Assembly (NCBI GenBank): GCA_902586435.1
Contig: CACIHJ010000001.1
Coordinates: forward strand, 62,001-126,000
Reading direction: 5' to 3'
Source of the DNA: an uncultured Bacteroidota bacterium
GTDB lineage: Bacteria > Bacteroidota > Bacteroidia > Flavobacteriales > Flavobacteriaceae
Length of the DNA stretch: 64,000 nt
The number at the start of each line of letters is the position of its first letter. The stretch's first letter is position 1. The position numbers and the translations under genes were made by a program. The notes under the pieces were generated by a model. It saw only the letters and a program-made list of their open reading frames with translations, searched no databases and had not been told where the DNA came from. Positions 34,456 through 40,624 of the stretch are shown here, one piece after another.

Positions 34456-34551
34456 ATGAGTAAATCGTTTGTGACTTTTATTGTAATCTTCTCAATAATC
34501 ATAGTTTTAATTTTAATTTTCTATGATTATTTAAAAACCAAAGATGAGTAA
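34456..34551 (+). CDS. Candidate 31-residue single-span membrane peptide upstream of crtI
   Basis: The ATG at 34456 opens 31 codons ending in TAA at 34549-34551. The peptide starts 'MSKSFVTFIVIFSIIIVL', forms one hydrophobic helix (about 5-22), then a charged tail ending 'YLKTKDE'. It overlaps the crtI start by 8 bases (its last codons contain the crtI ATG), the arrangement expected for translational coupling. It fills the space between the divergent lipoprotein gene and crtI. Chance hydrophobic ORFs are frequent in AT-rich DNA, so conservation is needed to confirm it. No known function. Confidence 0.45.
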   Translation: MSKSFVTFIVIFSIIIVLILIFYDYLKTKDE

Positions 34552-36016
34552 AAAAATAATTGTTATAGGTTCTGGATTTTCATCTTTATCTGCAGCAACT
34601 TACCTCTCTAAATATGGATATCAGGTAACTATTCTTGAAAAAAATAAATCTTTTGGTGGAAGAGCCAGAAAATTTAATGCTGATGGATTTACATTTGATA
34701 TGGGACCATCTTGGTATTGGATGCCAGATGTATTTGAAAAGTTTTTTAATGATTTTGGGAAAAAAGTTAAAGATTACTATTCTCTAAAAAAATTAAATCC
34801 TGCCTATAGGGTTTACTTTGGCAAGAAAGATTTTATAGATATAGAAGATGATCTAAAAAAAATTAGTAACTCATTTGAAGAAGTTGAGACCGGTTCTTCA
34901 AAAAAATTAATCAAGTTTATGGGTGAAGCAAAAAAAAACTATTTTATTGCAATGGATAAGATTGTATATAAACCAGGTCAATCAATATTTGAATTAATTA
35001 CTCTAGATACATTTTTAAGATTAAGATATTTTATTACAAATATAAAATCAGAAGTAGGTAAGTATTTTAAAAATGAAAAGCTTAGAAAAATTCTAGAGTT
35101 TCCTGTTCTATTTCTTGGAGCTAAGCCAGAAAATACTCCTGCATTCTATAATATTATGAATCATGCAGATTTTGGACTGGGAACATGGTTCCCAGAAAAA
35201 GGAGGGATGTATAGAGTAGTTGAATCTATGGTTGAGCTTGCAAAAGAAGTAGGAGTTAAATTCAAATCTGACTCTCAAGTTGATAAAATATTAATACAGG
35301 ATAAAAAGGTTGTTGGCGTTATAGCTAATGGTAAGAATCTTTCATGTGATATTGTAGTAAGTGGTGCTGATTATAATCACACTGAACAACTTATTCCTAA
35401 AAATTATAGAAATTATAGCAGTTCATATTGGGATAAAAAAGTTTTCGCCCCTTCTTCACTTCTTTTTTATATAGGTTTAGATAAAAAAATTAAAAAATTG
35501 AGTCATCATAATCTTTTTTTTGATGTTAGCTTCGATAAACATGCTTCTGAGATCTATGATAATCCTCAATGGCCTGAATCCCCTCTTTTCTATGTTAATT
35601 TTCCATCAATAACAGACAATGATATGGCCCCAGAGGGTTGTGAAAATTGTTTTATATTAATTCCTATTGCACCTGACTTGAAAGACAATAAGGAAATAAG
35701 AAATAAATATTTAAATATTGTACTTAAAAGAATTGAGGATATAGCAGGAGAGAAGATTAGTGAAAATATTATTTATAAAAAGTCATTTTGTGTTAATGAT
35801 TTTATAAGTGAGTATAATTCATACAAGGGGAATGCATATGGATTAGCCAATACATTATTCCAAACTTCAATTTTTAAACCTAAAATAAAGAGTAAAAAAA
35901 TAAAAGGTCTTTACTTTACAGGTCAACTCACTGTCCCAGGACCAGGAGTTCCCCCTTCTTTAATTTCCGGAAAAATTGTTTCTAAAACTATTATGCAGGA
36001 TTTCCCGAATCAATAA
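34544..36016 (+). CDS. crtI: Phytoene desaturase (CrtI family)
   Basis: An FAD-dependent carotenoid desaturase converting phytoene to more conjugated carotenes, peripheral to the membrane. The N-terminal dinucleotide fold reads 'VIGSGFSSLSAATYLS' with 'EKNKSFGGRARKF'. The substrate region 'FTFDMGPSWYWMPDVFEKFF' and the C-terminal signature 'FTGQLTVPGPGVPPSLISG' are the classic CrtI marks; 490 residues is complete. The close relative CrtD is possible, but the match to flavobacterial CrtI sequences I know is strong. Unusually, no phytoene synthase (crtB) follows; the next gene is convergent and overlaps by 26 bases. Confidence 0.92.
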   Translation: MSKKIIVIGSGFSSLSAATYLSKYGYQVTILEKNKSFGGRARKFNADGFTFDMGPSWYWMPDVFEKFFNDFGKKVKDYYSLKKLNPAYRVYFGKKDFIDIEDDLKKISNSFEEVETGSSKKLIKFMGEAKKNYFIAMDKIVYKPGQSIFELITLDTFLRLRYFITNIKSEVGKYFKNEKLRKILEFPVLFLGAKPENTPAFYNIMNHADFGLGTWFPEKGGMYRVVESMVELAKEVGVKFKSDSQVDKILIQDKKVVGVIANGKNLSCDIVVSGADYNHTEQLIPKNYRNYSSSYWDKKVFAPSSLLFYIGLDKKIKKLSHHNLFFDVSFDKHASEIYDNPQWPESPLFYVNFPSITDNDMAPEGCENCFILIPIAPDLKDNKEIRNKYLNIVLKRIEDIAGEKISENIIYKKSFCVNDFISEYNSYKGNAYGLANTLFQTSIFKPKIKSKKIKGLYFTGQLTVPGPGVPPSLISGKIVSKTIMQDFPNQ

Positions 36017-39000
36017 AACTTTCTTTTTCCATTATTGATTCTATTATTTCTCTAATAAAATTTTCTATTTTACTTATCTCTATGTCTTCTGAATTTTCAA
36101 TAAACTCATAAGGATTATTATTTTTTTTAAAATAACATAATCCAATCTCATTAACATCTTGATGTTTCTTTGAAACCAAAAGTTTATAAAATAAAAGTTG
36201 AAGCATATTAGAGTATTTATGATTATTCTTTAGAATTTCAAAACCTTTAAACTTCAAATAGTTAGTTTCTATTTTTCCTGATTTATAATCAATGATTCTC
36301 AAATTATTATTAAAAGTATCAATCCTATCAATAGTTCCAGTTAATATAACATCTAAATTATGATTAACTCTTATCATCGATGTCATCTTATTTTCAAGTG
36401 ATAAAATTTTAATCTTATCCCCTTTTTTAACTAGTTCTCTTTCATAATTTAATATGTTAATGATACACTTTTTTAGCACCTCAATAAATATTAGATCTTT
36501 TCCTTCTGGACTATTTGAATTAAGTTCCATATAACACTCCATTGAAATCGTATCTAATTTTTTTATTATTTCATTAAAATGTTCAACTTTGAAAATTTTA
36601 TTTATATATGGGGAATATGCTTTATCCATAACTGTGTGAAACAGCGTGCCTTGATCTTTGAAATTTAAATAATTTGACTCCTCATAGTCATTAATGCGAA
36701 GGATCTTTTGCTGGTAGAATAGGTAGGGGTTTTTAATAAAAAGGTTTAAAGTTGATGCAGATATTCCGTTTTTTAAAATATCATCAATCCTTTGATTAAT
36801 CAAATCGTCTTTTTTAATTATCTCTGAATCAATATTTTTAATAATCTTTTTTGATTGGATTACCTCTTCATTATAATTATATAATCCGGAAAATTCTATT
36901 TGTTTAATAAATCTACTTGCCTCACCACTCATTAATGAACTTAAGTCTGAGTCATAAATTAAATGTACTTCTTTTGCTTTATGGATTAAATCATAGAAAA
37001 GATCGTGAATATGATTTTCCTGTTCATGTTGCGACTTATTATCAAAATTTATTTTTTCTGATTCTTCTATAACACCCTCATTAATATTTGAAAAAGGGAA
37101 GAAACCTTCATTCATATTTGTAATTATAACATAATCACAGTCTAAAGAACCTGACTCTAGAATATGATGATTTGAGGAAATTTTTAAATTCTGATTATAG
37201 TCATAGATATTAATAAGATTAAGTAATTTTTCATTAGCAAAAAAAACATAAACTTTTGCGGATTTATCTTTATCATAAATTTTGGTAAGAATGTCAGATA
37301 CATATTTTGCTTGATTAACATTTTTTGAGGTGGATCTTATATTAATTATTTTCTTGCTGAGATTATTTGAGTCATATTGAGGGCTACTTTTTTTAGATAT
37401 TATCAATTTTTCACCAATTGAATATTTATCCAAACTTGACTTATAAGCTAAAAAGTCTTTAACTAGGTTAGAAGAAGAATTATTTTCAGAATTGTCTTTT
37501 TTTGAAATAATAAAAAGTTCTTTTTCAGCTCTAGTGAAAGCAACGTATAGTAAATTAACTGAATCGATTAAATTGTTTAGGATACTTCTATCATATATTT
37601 CTTTTGCATTTTCTCCCATATTTCGAAGATTTTTTGATGTTCTCATTAAAGTCCATTTTAAATCTTTTAAATTTTCAAAAGGATCATCCAACCATATTAG
37701 ATCTTTAGAAAGATTTTCATCTAGCTTATCATCATAGATAGGAATTATTACAGCAGGATATTCAAGACCTTTAGATTTATGAATTGTAGAAATACTTATA
37801 GAGTTTTGATTATCAGGCATACTTAACATTATGTTGTCAGATTTTTTTTCCCAATAGTTCAGATATGACTTGATTGAATCATCATTATTATCAAGAAATT
37901 CAAATATATTATCAATTAGAGCAACTATAAATGGATCTTCAATATCTAGGTTAAAAATATATGCACAGTATTTAATAGCATTAAGAATATTAAGAGATAA
38001 AAAGTGTTTTAATTCAAATTTTTCATTATTTGAAATCCTTAAGAAAAAGTCATTTATCTTAACTCTTGAAAGGTTAAAAGAAAAGCATTGATTCAAATTA
38101 TCATGATTGTTTTCAAAAAAATTCTGGTTATATAGATAGTTTATAACTTTTTTTCTCTCAACGTAATCATTTTCAAATAAACTTAATTTAAAAATTGAAA
38201 TAATAAATTGAACATTATCAGAATTATTTATTTGAAGAATATCACTAGAAATAAAGTCAAATTCTGAGTTACTAATATTCTCTATTATCTCTTTTGCATG
38301 TTTATGCTTTCTAACTAAAATAACTATTTCTGAAGGTGAATATCCTCGATTTAAAAGATCTAAAATTTGGTTCTCTATTTTTGAAAAGAATGATTCGTTA
38401 TCACACATATCAATTGAAACATATCCGGTTCTTTGCCTATGTGATTTTTGTCTAAAATTTAAATCATCTGAATTGTATATTCCTAAATCTAAATTATTTG
38501 ATAAAAAACTAAAAAATTCTGAATTAAAATCAACTATTTCTTTACAACTTCTATAATTTATATCTTCTTTATCATCTAATATTCTTTTTAGATGAAATGG
38601 ATTTTTTCGATTATGTATTAAGTTTAAAAATTGATTAAATTCTCCTCCACGCCACCTATAGATCGACTGCTTAGGATCCCCTACAATTAATAAAGAACCC
38701 TTGGATCCATCATGATCTTCACTATGAATAGAATTTGAAATTAAAGGAATTAGATTTTCCCACTGAAGTTCTGATGTATCTTGAAACTCATCAATAAAAA
38801 AGTCTACAAATATAGAACCTAACTTCTCGTATATATATGGGGCATCATTTAATTTAATAAGTGTATTAAGTTGAGTGTTGAATTTACTTATTAATCTTAC
38901 TTTATTTTGATTTTGTATTTTATCAATTTTATCCTCAATTCTTGAGATTAGAGATATAGATGGAATAAATGATAATGTTGAAGTTATTTTATCAATTTCT

Positions 39001-39941
39001 ATAATTGATTTTTTAATTTTTAAATAATTTTTTAAAAGGCTTGGCCTAATTTTTTCGATAATATCTACTTTATTTTTTTCTAAAGTTTTGTTATATAAAT
39101 TTGATTCTCCTTTTAAAGACTTTTCAGAAGATTCATTTATGTTAAAATTGGATTGACTTTTTAATTTTTTAAGATATTTTGGGAAATAACCTCCTTTAAA
39201 ATCCTTTTCATTAAGTCCACTTTGATTAATCAAATCAAGTGTTTCATTGCTTAAATCATGAATATATTTTGTTTTTTTATAGTATAGTGCAAGAATTTTT
39301 TCCCTTATTTGAGAAAAAAACTTAAGATCCTTTTTCTTAAAATACTCTACCTGATATCTATTTGATTCTTTATCAATAAAAAGTCCAAAGTTTACTAAAT
39401 CATATGTAACATCCCAGCTTTTATTAATTGTAAGTTTATATTTTGCAAATTCGACAAGTAATTCTTTTAATTCTTTATCCTGATTTATTTCAGAAATTAA
39501 TTCTTCAACAGCTTGATCTATATATATTTGATTATCGAACTCAACAAGAAAATCATCCTTGTTTTCTAACTCTGCATTTACAGTTTTAATAATATTATTA
39601 GTAAAGCTATCAATTGTAATAACATTAAAATTTGAATAGTTATATAAAATTTTTTCTAAAATAGTAGAGGATCTTTTTTGAATTGTAGATTCATCCAGAC
39701 CTGTTATTTTTAATATTTCATCCAATACAATTTTATTACTTTGGTATTTTAGATCATTTAAATAGAGTAGTATTCTATATTTCATTTCAGCAGAAGCTTT
39801 ATTTGTAAAAGTTAAAGCTAGCATTGATTTAAAATGCTCATCATTTTTTTTACTGAATAGTTTTGATATATATTCAATGGCAAGTTTAAATGTTTTCCCT
39901 GAACCAGCTGATGAGTTTATAATTTTAAATGAATAATCCAT
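35991..39941 (-). CDS. Helicase-nuclease fusion: AddA/RecB-like UvrD helicase joined to AddB-like nuclease half
   Basis: A 1316-residue DNA end-processing enzyme for double-strand break repair. Residues 1 to about 815 form an SF1 (UvrD/RecB) helicase: Walker A 'SSAGSGKT' (10-17), 'LTFTNKASAEMK' (43-54), DEFQD (384-388), 'GDPKQSIYRWRGG' (421-433), 'STIHKSKGLE' (718-727), 'LLYVAFTRAEKEL' (797-809). From about 870 on, the sequence resembles the C-terminal half of bacteroidotal AddB-like proteins: 'TNMNEGFFPF' (941-950), 'SGEASRFIKQIEF' (1005-1017), 'SASTLNLFIKNP' (1061-1072). The nuclease motifs are GTLFH (1098-1102), GTIDRID (1202-1208), DYKSGK (1218-1223) and QLLFY (1248-1252), an intact PD-(D/E)XK site. 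Normally AddA and AddB are separate proteins. Confidence 0.85.
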   Translation of the reverse strand: MDYSFKIINSSAGSGKTFKLAIEYISKLFSKKNDEHFKSMLALTFTNKASAEMKYRILLYLNDLKYQSNKIVLDEILKITGLDESTIQKRSSTILEKILYNYSNFNVITIDSFTNNIIKTVNAELENKDDFLVEFDNQIYIDQAVEELISEINQDKELKELLVEFAKYKLTINKSWDVTYDLVNFGLFIDKESNRYQVEYFKKKDLKFFSQIREKILALYYKKTKYIHDLSNETLDLINQSGLNEKDFKGGYFPKYLKKLKSQSNFNINESSEKSLKGESNLYNKTLEKNKVDIIEKIRPSLLKNYLKIKKSIIEIDKITSTLSFIPSISLISRIEDKIDKIQNQNKVRLISKFNTQLNTLIKLNDAPYIYEKLGSIFVDFFIDEFQDTSELQWENLIPLISNSIHSEDHDGSKGSLLIVGDPKQSIYRWRGGEFNQFLNLIHNRKNPFHLKRILDDKEDINYRSCKEIVDFNSEFFSFLSNNLDLGIYNSDDLNFRQKSHRQRTGYVSIDMCDNESFFSKIENQILDLLNRGYSPSEIVILVRKHKHAKEIIENISNSEFDFISSDILQINNSDNVQFIISIFKLSLFENDYVERKKVINYLYNQNFFENNHDNLNQCFSFNLSRVKINDFFLRISNNEKFELKHFLSLNILNAIKYCAYIFNLDIEDPFIVALIDNIFEFLDNNDDSIKSYLNYWEKKSDNIMLSMPDNQNSISISTIHKSKGLEYPAVIIPIYDDKLDENLSKDLIWLDDPFENLKDLKWTLMRTSKNLRNMGENAKEIYDRSILNNLIDSVNLLYVAFTRAEKELFIISKKDNSENNSSSNLVKDFLAYKSSLDKYSIGEKLIISKKSSPQYDSNNLSKKIINIRSTSKNVNQAKYVSDILTKIYDKDKSAKVYVFFANEKLLNLINIYDYNQNLKISSNHHILESGSLDCDYVIITNMNEGFFPFSNINEGVIEESEKINFDNKSQHEQENHIHDLFYDLIHKAKEVHLIYDSDLSSLMSGEASRFIKQIEFSGLYNYNEEVIQSKKIIKNIDSEIIKKDDLINQRIDDILKNGISASTLNLFIKNPYLFYQQKILRINDYEESNYLNFKDQGTLFHTVMDKAYSPYINKIFKVEHFNEIIKKLDTISMECYMELNSNSPEGKDLIFIEVLKKCIINILNYERELVKKGDKIKILSLENKMTSMIRVNHNLDVILTGTIDRIDTFNNNLRIIDYKSGKIETNYLKFKGFEILKNNHKYSNMLQLLFYKLLVSKKHQDVNEIGLCYFKKNNNPYEFIENSEDIEISKIENFIREIIESIMEKESFIDSGNPA

Positions 39942-40018: not shown

Positions 40019-40624
40019 ATGGCTTTTGAATTACCAAAACTTAATTATTCATTTGATGCACTAGAACCTCACATTGATGCAAAAACAATGGAGATTCATT
40101 ATGGAAAACATCATAATGGTTATACAAACAATTTAAATAATGCGATTAGTGGAACTGAACTTGAAAGTAAAACTATAGAAGAAATTTTAAAAAATCTAGA
40201 TTTAGATAATATGGCTTTAAGAAATAACGCAGGGGGGTATTTTAATCACAACTTATTTTGGGAAATAATGGGTCCAAATTGTGGAGGTAATCCGAGTGGT
40301 GAAATTTCTGAAGCAATTAATTCAAATTTTAATTCATTTGAAAACTTCAAAGAAGAATTTAAAAAAGCAGCAGCGACCAGATTTGGTTCTGGTTGGGCAT
40401 GGCTTTGTGTACTTGGAGATGGGAAATTAGAAATTTGTTCAACTCCCAACCAAGATAATCCACTTATGGAAAACTCATGCGGTGGTAATCCTATTCTTTG
40501 CCTTGACGTCTGGGAACACGCGTATTATCTTAATTACCAGAATAGAAGACCTGATTATATTGAAGCCTTTTTCAGTTTAATTAATTGGGATGAGGTTAAT
40601 AGTAAATATTTGAATTTTAAATAA
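40019..40624 (+). CDS. sodA: Superoxide dismutase (Fe/Mn family)
   Basis: This cytosolic enzyme dismutates superoxide. Metal ligands are visible in the usual contexts: His in '[17 protein letters not shown]', His in '[12 protein letters not shown]', and Asp and His in '[20 protein letters not shown]'. '[17 protein letters not shown]' is the family core. At 201 residues it is complete. Fe versus Mn use cannot be decided from sequence; the symbol follows the family. It stands alone between the divergent fusion helicase and a strong terminator. Confidence 0.96.

Follow-up and report, generated by a model that had tools for sequence, protein, structure and literature searches.

The complexity of the RecBCD and AddAB helicase-nucleases is usually put down to the need to switch from destroying DNA to repairing it at Chi. 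In mycobacterial AdnAB, a RecB-like helicase-nuclease, both of the two subunits contain a helicase and a nuclease domain, and Cromie is said to have treated the shuffling of RecBCD and AddAB in 2009. Bacteroidota AddAB comprises an AddA of about 1050 aa and an AddB of about 920 aa. In Bacillus subtilis AddAB, the single AddA motor travels on the 3' strand, which is cut by the AddA nuclease, while the AddB nuclease cuts the 5' strand. Binding of Chi to the helicase-like N-terminal region of AddB protects the 3' strand against the AddA nuclease (PMC4027173, PMC4824097). The residues of B. subtilis AddB that contact Chi are F68, R132 and F210, the latch partner E129 lies in the 1A/1B part, and the 2A fold, which holds the latch, contributes to the Chi scanner (PMC4824097). 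Single chains that combine a helicase with a RecB-family nuclease are known from eukaryotic Dna2 and from Bad, the bacterial Dna2-like protein of Geobacillus (PMC7430649).

We analysed a window of 64,000 nucleotides from an uncultured member of the Flavobacteriaceae (GenBank assembly GCA_902586435.1, contig CACIHJ010000001.1, positions 62,001 to 126,000), in which a single gene encodes an AddA-like helicase joined to the C-terminal part of AddB (Table 1). A preliminary description of this DNA, made from the letters alone, had proposed such a protein; its coordinates proved exact, and the minus strand, which it left unstated, can be added. All of the SF1 helicase motifs that it placed in residues 1-815 are there (NSSAGSGKT at residue 9, DEFQDT at 384, GDPKQ at 421, IHKSKGLE at 720 and YVAFTRA at 799), as is every AddB-like motif that it listed for the C-terminal part (among them NMNEGFFPF at 942, SGEASRF at 1005, GTLFH at 1098, GTIDRID at 1202, DYKSGK at 1218 and QLLFY at 1248). 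Pfam searches of the 1316-residue protein found UvrD-helicase, UvrD_C reaching residue 814, and PDDEXK_1 at residues 1060-1304 (E 9e-21), and NCBIfam searches found RecB-like helicase models over residues 9-819 and AddB models over the C-terminal part. The match to the RecB-like helicase model NF010485 (E 4e-70 over residues 9-819) is under the curated cut-off, as is that of the two-gene AddA used for reference below. The protein thus carries an AddA/RecB-like SF1A motor with motifs I-VI and the RecB-type 1B and 2B domains.

Table 1. Features of the fusion locus, with positions in the window, and loci of a second Flavobacteriales family with a nuclease-less AddA, with positions in those loci.
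Feature	Position	Strand	Remarks
addA-addB fusion gene	35991..39941	-	1316 aa; stop codon included; single uninterrupted ORF; ATG start
AddA/RecB-type SF1A helicase (1A, 1B, 2A, 2B), complete	37437..39941	-	residues 1-835
Variable fusion linker	37368..37436	-	residues 836-858; no match to AddA57 or AddB57; low pLDDT
Remnant 2A (RecA-like) fold of the AddB inactive helicase	36855..37367	-	residues 859-1029
AddB-type PD-(D/E)XK nuclease	36027..36776	-	residues 1056-1305; H1102, D1205, D1218 and K1220 present
sodA-like gene	40019..40624	+	conserved upstream neighbour; marks the ancestral addA-addB locus
crtI-like gene	34544..36016	+	conserved downstream neighbour
Nuclease-less AddA family	L086:7444-10023, L087:5805-8456, L093-L096

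To trace the two parts of the protein, we used as reference the separate addA (1047 aa) and addB (909 aa) of a related MAG, Flavobacteriaceae bacterium TMED121 (locus L057; henceforth AddA57 and AddB57). Residues 4-835 of the fusion matched AddA57 5-849 (35% identity, E 1e-129), residues 859-916 matched AddB57 261-320 (E 5e-5, weak alone but collinear) and residues 927-1305 matched AddB57 507-897 (32% identity, E 2e-49). Given E-values of 1e-129 for AddA and 2e-49 for AddB, the joined matches are not due to chance. The segments with no counterpart in the fusion in these pairwise matches are AddA57 850-1047, AddB57 1-260 and AddB57 321-506. The first of them contains the AddA57 nuclease (GILIH, PDRIV and DYKTG at 911-1005), and the proposed loss of AddA's own nuclease is therefore upheld; the profiles agree, as the match to an AddA-type profile of 909 positions runs to profile position 905 for AddA57 and stops at 709 for the fusion. 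Could residues 860-1316 nevertheless be the ordinary C terminus of AddA? This is ruled out by the pairwise matches and by profiles which we built from 28 AddA and 31 AddB C termini: the C termini of 15 fusions scored 216-253 bits against the AddB profile and at most 11.6 bits against the AddA profile. The switch from one parent to the other, which had been placed after about residue 870, does exist but falls slightly earlier, in the linker at about 836-858.

Structure models refined the account of what remains of AddB. For residues 836-1316, the AlphaFold model (mean pLDDT 80.5) had B. subtilis AddB as its best match (Z 17.6 over 411 residues; the large rmsd of 15 Å is due to how two domains are placed relative to each other), and in most entries AddB was aligned from residue 281-309 to its end. 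Residues 6-194 of this model superposed on UvrD 301-658 over just 162 residues (3.7 Å), which indicates a 2A fold without the 2B insertion, and its second part superposed on RecB-family nucleases. A fold search was needed here, as the sequence profile of the AddB part matched only the Rep 2A region in the PDB. According to the models, the AddB piece keeps the 2A fold and the nuclease, and 1A, 1B and 2B are gone, 2B having been excised between about residues 916 and 927 of the fusion. The claim that AddB's inactive helicase is lost thus holds for 1A, 1B and 2B but not for the RecA-like 2A fold, retained at about residues 859-1029. In a second model, of residues 117-1316, the helicase (117-843) superposed on RecB 131-865 over 608 residues (5.9 Å) and the best structural match was B. 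subtilis AddA (Z 17.6); with a pTM of 0.58 for these 1200 residues, the domains fold and their overall arrangement is not reliable.

Among known systems, B. subtilis AddAB (PDB 4CEH, 4CEJ, 3U44) is therefore the best structural match to both parts, but it has a Chi scanner and an AddA nuclease, and the fusion has neither. Also unlike the B. subtilis enzyme, the fusion nuclease is without the conserved four-cysteine Fe-S pattern, as are the other flavobacterial AddB proteins aligned; its only cysteines past residue 835 (935, 1136, 1159 and 1269) are not a conserved set, which rules out an Fe-S nuclease. Structures of mycobacterial AdnA are close matches to the model of the AddB part (Z 16.2). 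Bacteroidota AddAB represents the direct ancestor type, with the same locus, motor and AddB nuclease motifs, although there the enzyme consists of two proteins with a nuclease each and the helicase-like region of AddB is complete, whereas the fusion is one chain with one nuclease and no AddB 1A, 1B or 2B. Dna2 and Bad resemble the fusion in being single chains with a helicase and a RecB-family nuclease; by contrast, they have an N-terminal Fe-S nuclease and a 5'-to-3' SF1B helicase, and we rejected membership of this group since the fusion has a C-terminal nuclease without the four Fe-S cysteines and an SF1A helicase of the RecB/UvrD type. Two defence systems were also discarded. Models for Gabija and DRT genes match the shared helicase core only, and Gabija GajB is a UvrD-like helicase that lies beside gajA and lacks a nuclease, whereas the fusion has one and its neighbours are sodA and crtI.

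These neighbours tie the fusion to the ancestral locus. A sodA-like gene also lies beside addA in six two-gene relatives (L057, L088, L089, L090, L091 and L092) and a crtI-like gene also follows addB in four of them (L057, L088, L089 and L092), where the order is sodA - addA - addB - unknown gene - crtI; in the window, the 3' end of the crtI-like gene overlaps that of the fusion by 26 bp. The genes addA and addB are 4-133 bp apart in these four relatives, and L090 and L091 have one or two genes between them. Because relatives keep addA and addB adjacent at this same locus, we conclude that an in-frame deletion joined the two genes in the ancestor of one small-genome genus of the Flavobacteriaceae. 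This deletion removed the AddA nuclease and the first ~260 residues of AddB, and a second deletion, internal to AddB, took away a further ~186 residues. All fusions formed one clade in our trees (helicase 100/100; nuclease SH-aLRT 100, in a quick tree with long branches), which is most simply explained by a single fusion event. There is no need to invoke the horizontal transfer of a fusion from elsewhere, and we rejected it, as both the locus and its neighbours are ancestral and each of the halves forms one group only. Two side observations concern these loci: a gene of ~280 aa between addB and crtI (L057:11943-12794, L088:10346-11182, L089:11915-12769) is absent from the window's locus, and one genome with 7% contamination (G313) has two AddA-like genes, one of them very long-branched (L064 and G313:C5:307683-310439).

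We next consider how widely the fusion occurs. Matches were found in 19 of 25 genomes of the genus, with full-length ORFs of 1313-1326 residues down to 54% identity; the gene is a single full-length ORF in 13 congener genomes and near-full in one more. That the source assembly is incomplete, in 24 contigs, might suggest that assembly or binning had joined two genes, but the same joint recurs in independent assemblies of many species, and the full-length ORFs of the 13 congeners refute this explanation, to which we assign a negligible probability. Whether a separate addB exists, as the preliminary description asked, was searched across the genus, and neither one nor any second PDDEXK_1 gene was found in any of the 25 congener genomes. 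Exactly one PDDEXK_1 match was present in 18 of the 25, and it always lay in the fusion itself or in a fragment of the fusion at a contig edge, so that the fusion accompanies the match in 18 of 18; the seven genomes with no match are 54-81% complete, and in one of these (G212) the gene is cut by a contig end. A two-subunit AddAB encoded by separate genes is accordingly not what these 25 genomes contain. It is possible that a second nuclease subunit lies in a gap of the source genome, which is 84% complete, and unlikely that one has been missed across the genus; the enzyme may also have a non-homologous partner subunit.

Nor is the long protein carried by most relatives. Among the matches listed for 397 family genomes from 237 genera and for 396 genomes of the order from 109 genera, no joined AddA-AddB match lay outside the genus; the two samples overlap and cover about 310 other genera of the order, and an unrelated fusion elsewhere may have escaped notice. 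In the samples taken, the fusion thus appears specific to one genus. We found no report of a natural one-chain AddA-AddB fusion in the literature searched, where an earlier mention is possible.

Both ends of the fusion are under purifying selection. The median dN/dS was 0.18 in the helicase, 0.20 in the nuclease and 0.28 in what remains of AddB 2A; the linker had the highest value of the protein, 0.48. These values are approximate, many pairs having high dS, and close pairs agree. In 15 fusions, the motifs of the SF1 helicase and of the nuclease are conserved. A gene decaying towards loss from a shrinking genome would be in keeping with genome reduction and with a reading frame that a stop or frameshift interrupts near residue 100 in one congener (G201; loci L035 and L055, G201:C22:28580-32537), but the full ORF and catalytic motifs persist in 13 further genomes, down to 54% identity, with dN/dS of ~0.2 at both ends. 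Decay, which we hold to be highly improbable, is refuted for the genus by this result and could apply to G201 only, where the interruption is either a sequencing error or a young pseudogene. Separately, the nuclease segment of the source genome and of G201 (35994-36701, residues 1081-1316) shows, from residue ~1081 onwards, a drop in identity to its nearest relatives (L036 and L037) from ~72% to ~50%, and these two remain ~83% alike. The pattern is a mosaic that suggests exchange of the segment by recombination, or else a burst of changes confined to it.

What might such an enzyme do? The explanation that we favour, and consider probable, is that AddAB has here been reduced to a single chain that resects the 5' strand at any sequence and is fixed in the post-Chi mode. 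It has kept the 3'-to-5' SF1A motor of AddA and the AddB nuclease, whose target in B. subtilis is the 5'-ended strand, and it has lost the AddA nuclease for the 3'-ended strand together with the Chi-binding scanner of AddB 1A/1B. The enzyme, presumably acting as a monomer, would load on double-strand ends and unwind along the 3' strand while cutting only the 5' strand. The product would be a 3' overhang at any sequence, as AddAB gives only after Chi, and RecA would then be loaded by RecFOR; RecO and RecN-like proteins do occur in the genus. The two losses fit together: because the 3'-strand nuclease is gone, Chi would have no activity left to switch off. It is reasonable to suppose that Chi control was lost, since F68, R132 and F210 of B. 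subtilis AddB belong to the N-terminal part that is missing; what is said here of strand roles and of the meaning of Chi is transferred from B. subtilis AddAB, and flavobacterial AddAB may not use Chi.

Two other modes of action were weighed against 5'-strand resection. The first is that Chi control persists in some other way, a sequence being read by the 2A remnant, by the channel of AddA or by a small, separate partner. Retention of the 2A fold at a dN/dS of 0.28 speaks for it, this fold being part of the scanner and the latch carrier in B. subtilis AddB, but the Chi-contacting residues and the latch partner E129 belong to the lost 1A/1B part (PMC4824097) and the remnant is the least constrained of the folded parts, which makes this mode very doubtful. 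The second is an unregulated, degradative exonuclease, in which one nuclease cuts both unwound strands and destroys linear DNA (phage DNA, broken ends), leaving recombination to RecFOR and RecN alone. A single nuclease freed from the complex could reach both strands, the variable linker could let it reach either of them, loss of the Chi scanner takes away the known brake, and the congeners have RecO as well as RecN-like proteins, the latter just under the curated cut-off. We still judge it unlikely, given that destruction of the 3' strand in AddAB is the work of the very nuclease that was lost (PMC4824097) and that an enzyme without a brake would do harm whenever a fork breaks, whereas purifying selection on the gene is strong. 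The congeners also have a separate UvrD (752 aa in most); no UvrD/PcrA helicase was found in the window's own assembly, probably on account of a gap in that genome.

Under 5'-strand resection, the whole genus would seem to have neither the Chi switch nor the nuclease that Chi restrains. We see about even chances that the fusion is a natural Chi-free resection enzyme, i.e., an AddAB fixed in its post-Chi, recombination-ready state within one polypeptide; if so, Chi control would be dispensable once the 3'-strand nuclease is gone. The fusion would also offer an enzyme more accessible to study, being compact and made of one chain, a way to test whether minimal bacterial break resection amounts to one motor and one 5'-strand nuclease, and an example of a shrinking genome simplifying a multi-subunit machine by deletion fusion.

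The logic of these losses is supported by another family of the order, with 0.6-Mb genomes and one of 1.3 Mb, whose AddA (859-883 aa) ends after the helicase and whose separate AddB (888-913 aa) has the catalytic H, D, D and K intact (Table 1). As in the fusion, the AddA nuclease has been lost and the AddB nuclease kept; unlike in the fusion, AddB remains a protein of its own (about 890-913 aa in the 0.6-Mb genomes). The loss of the AddA nuclease beside a full AddB occurred independently here, and this state may represent a first step towards a fusion. In one genome of this family (G535), AddB is split into two frames.
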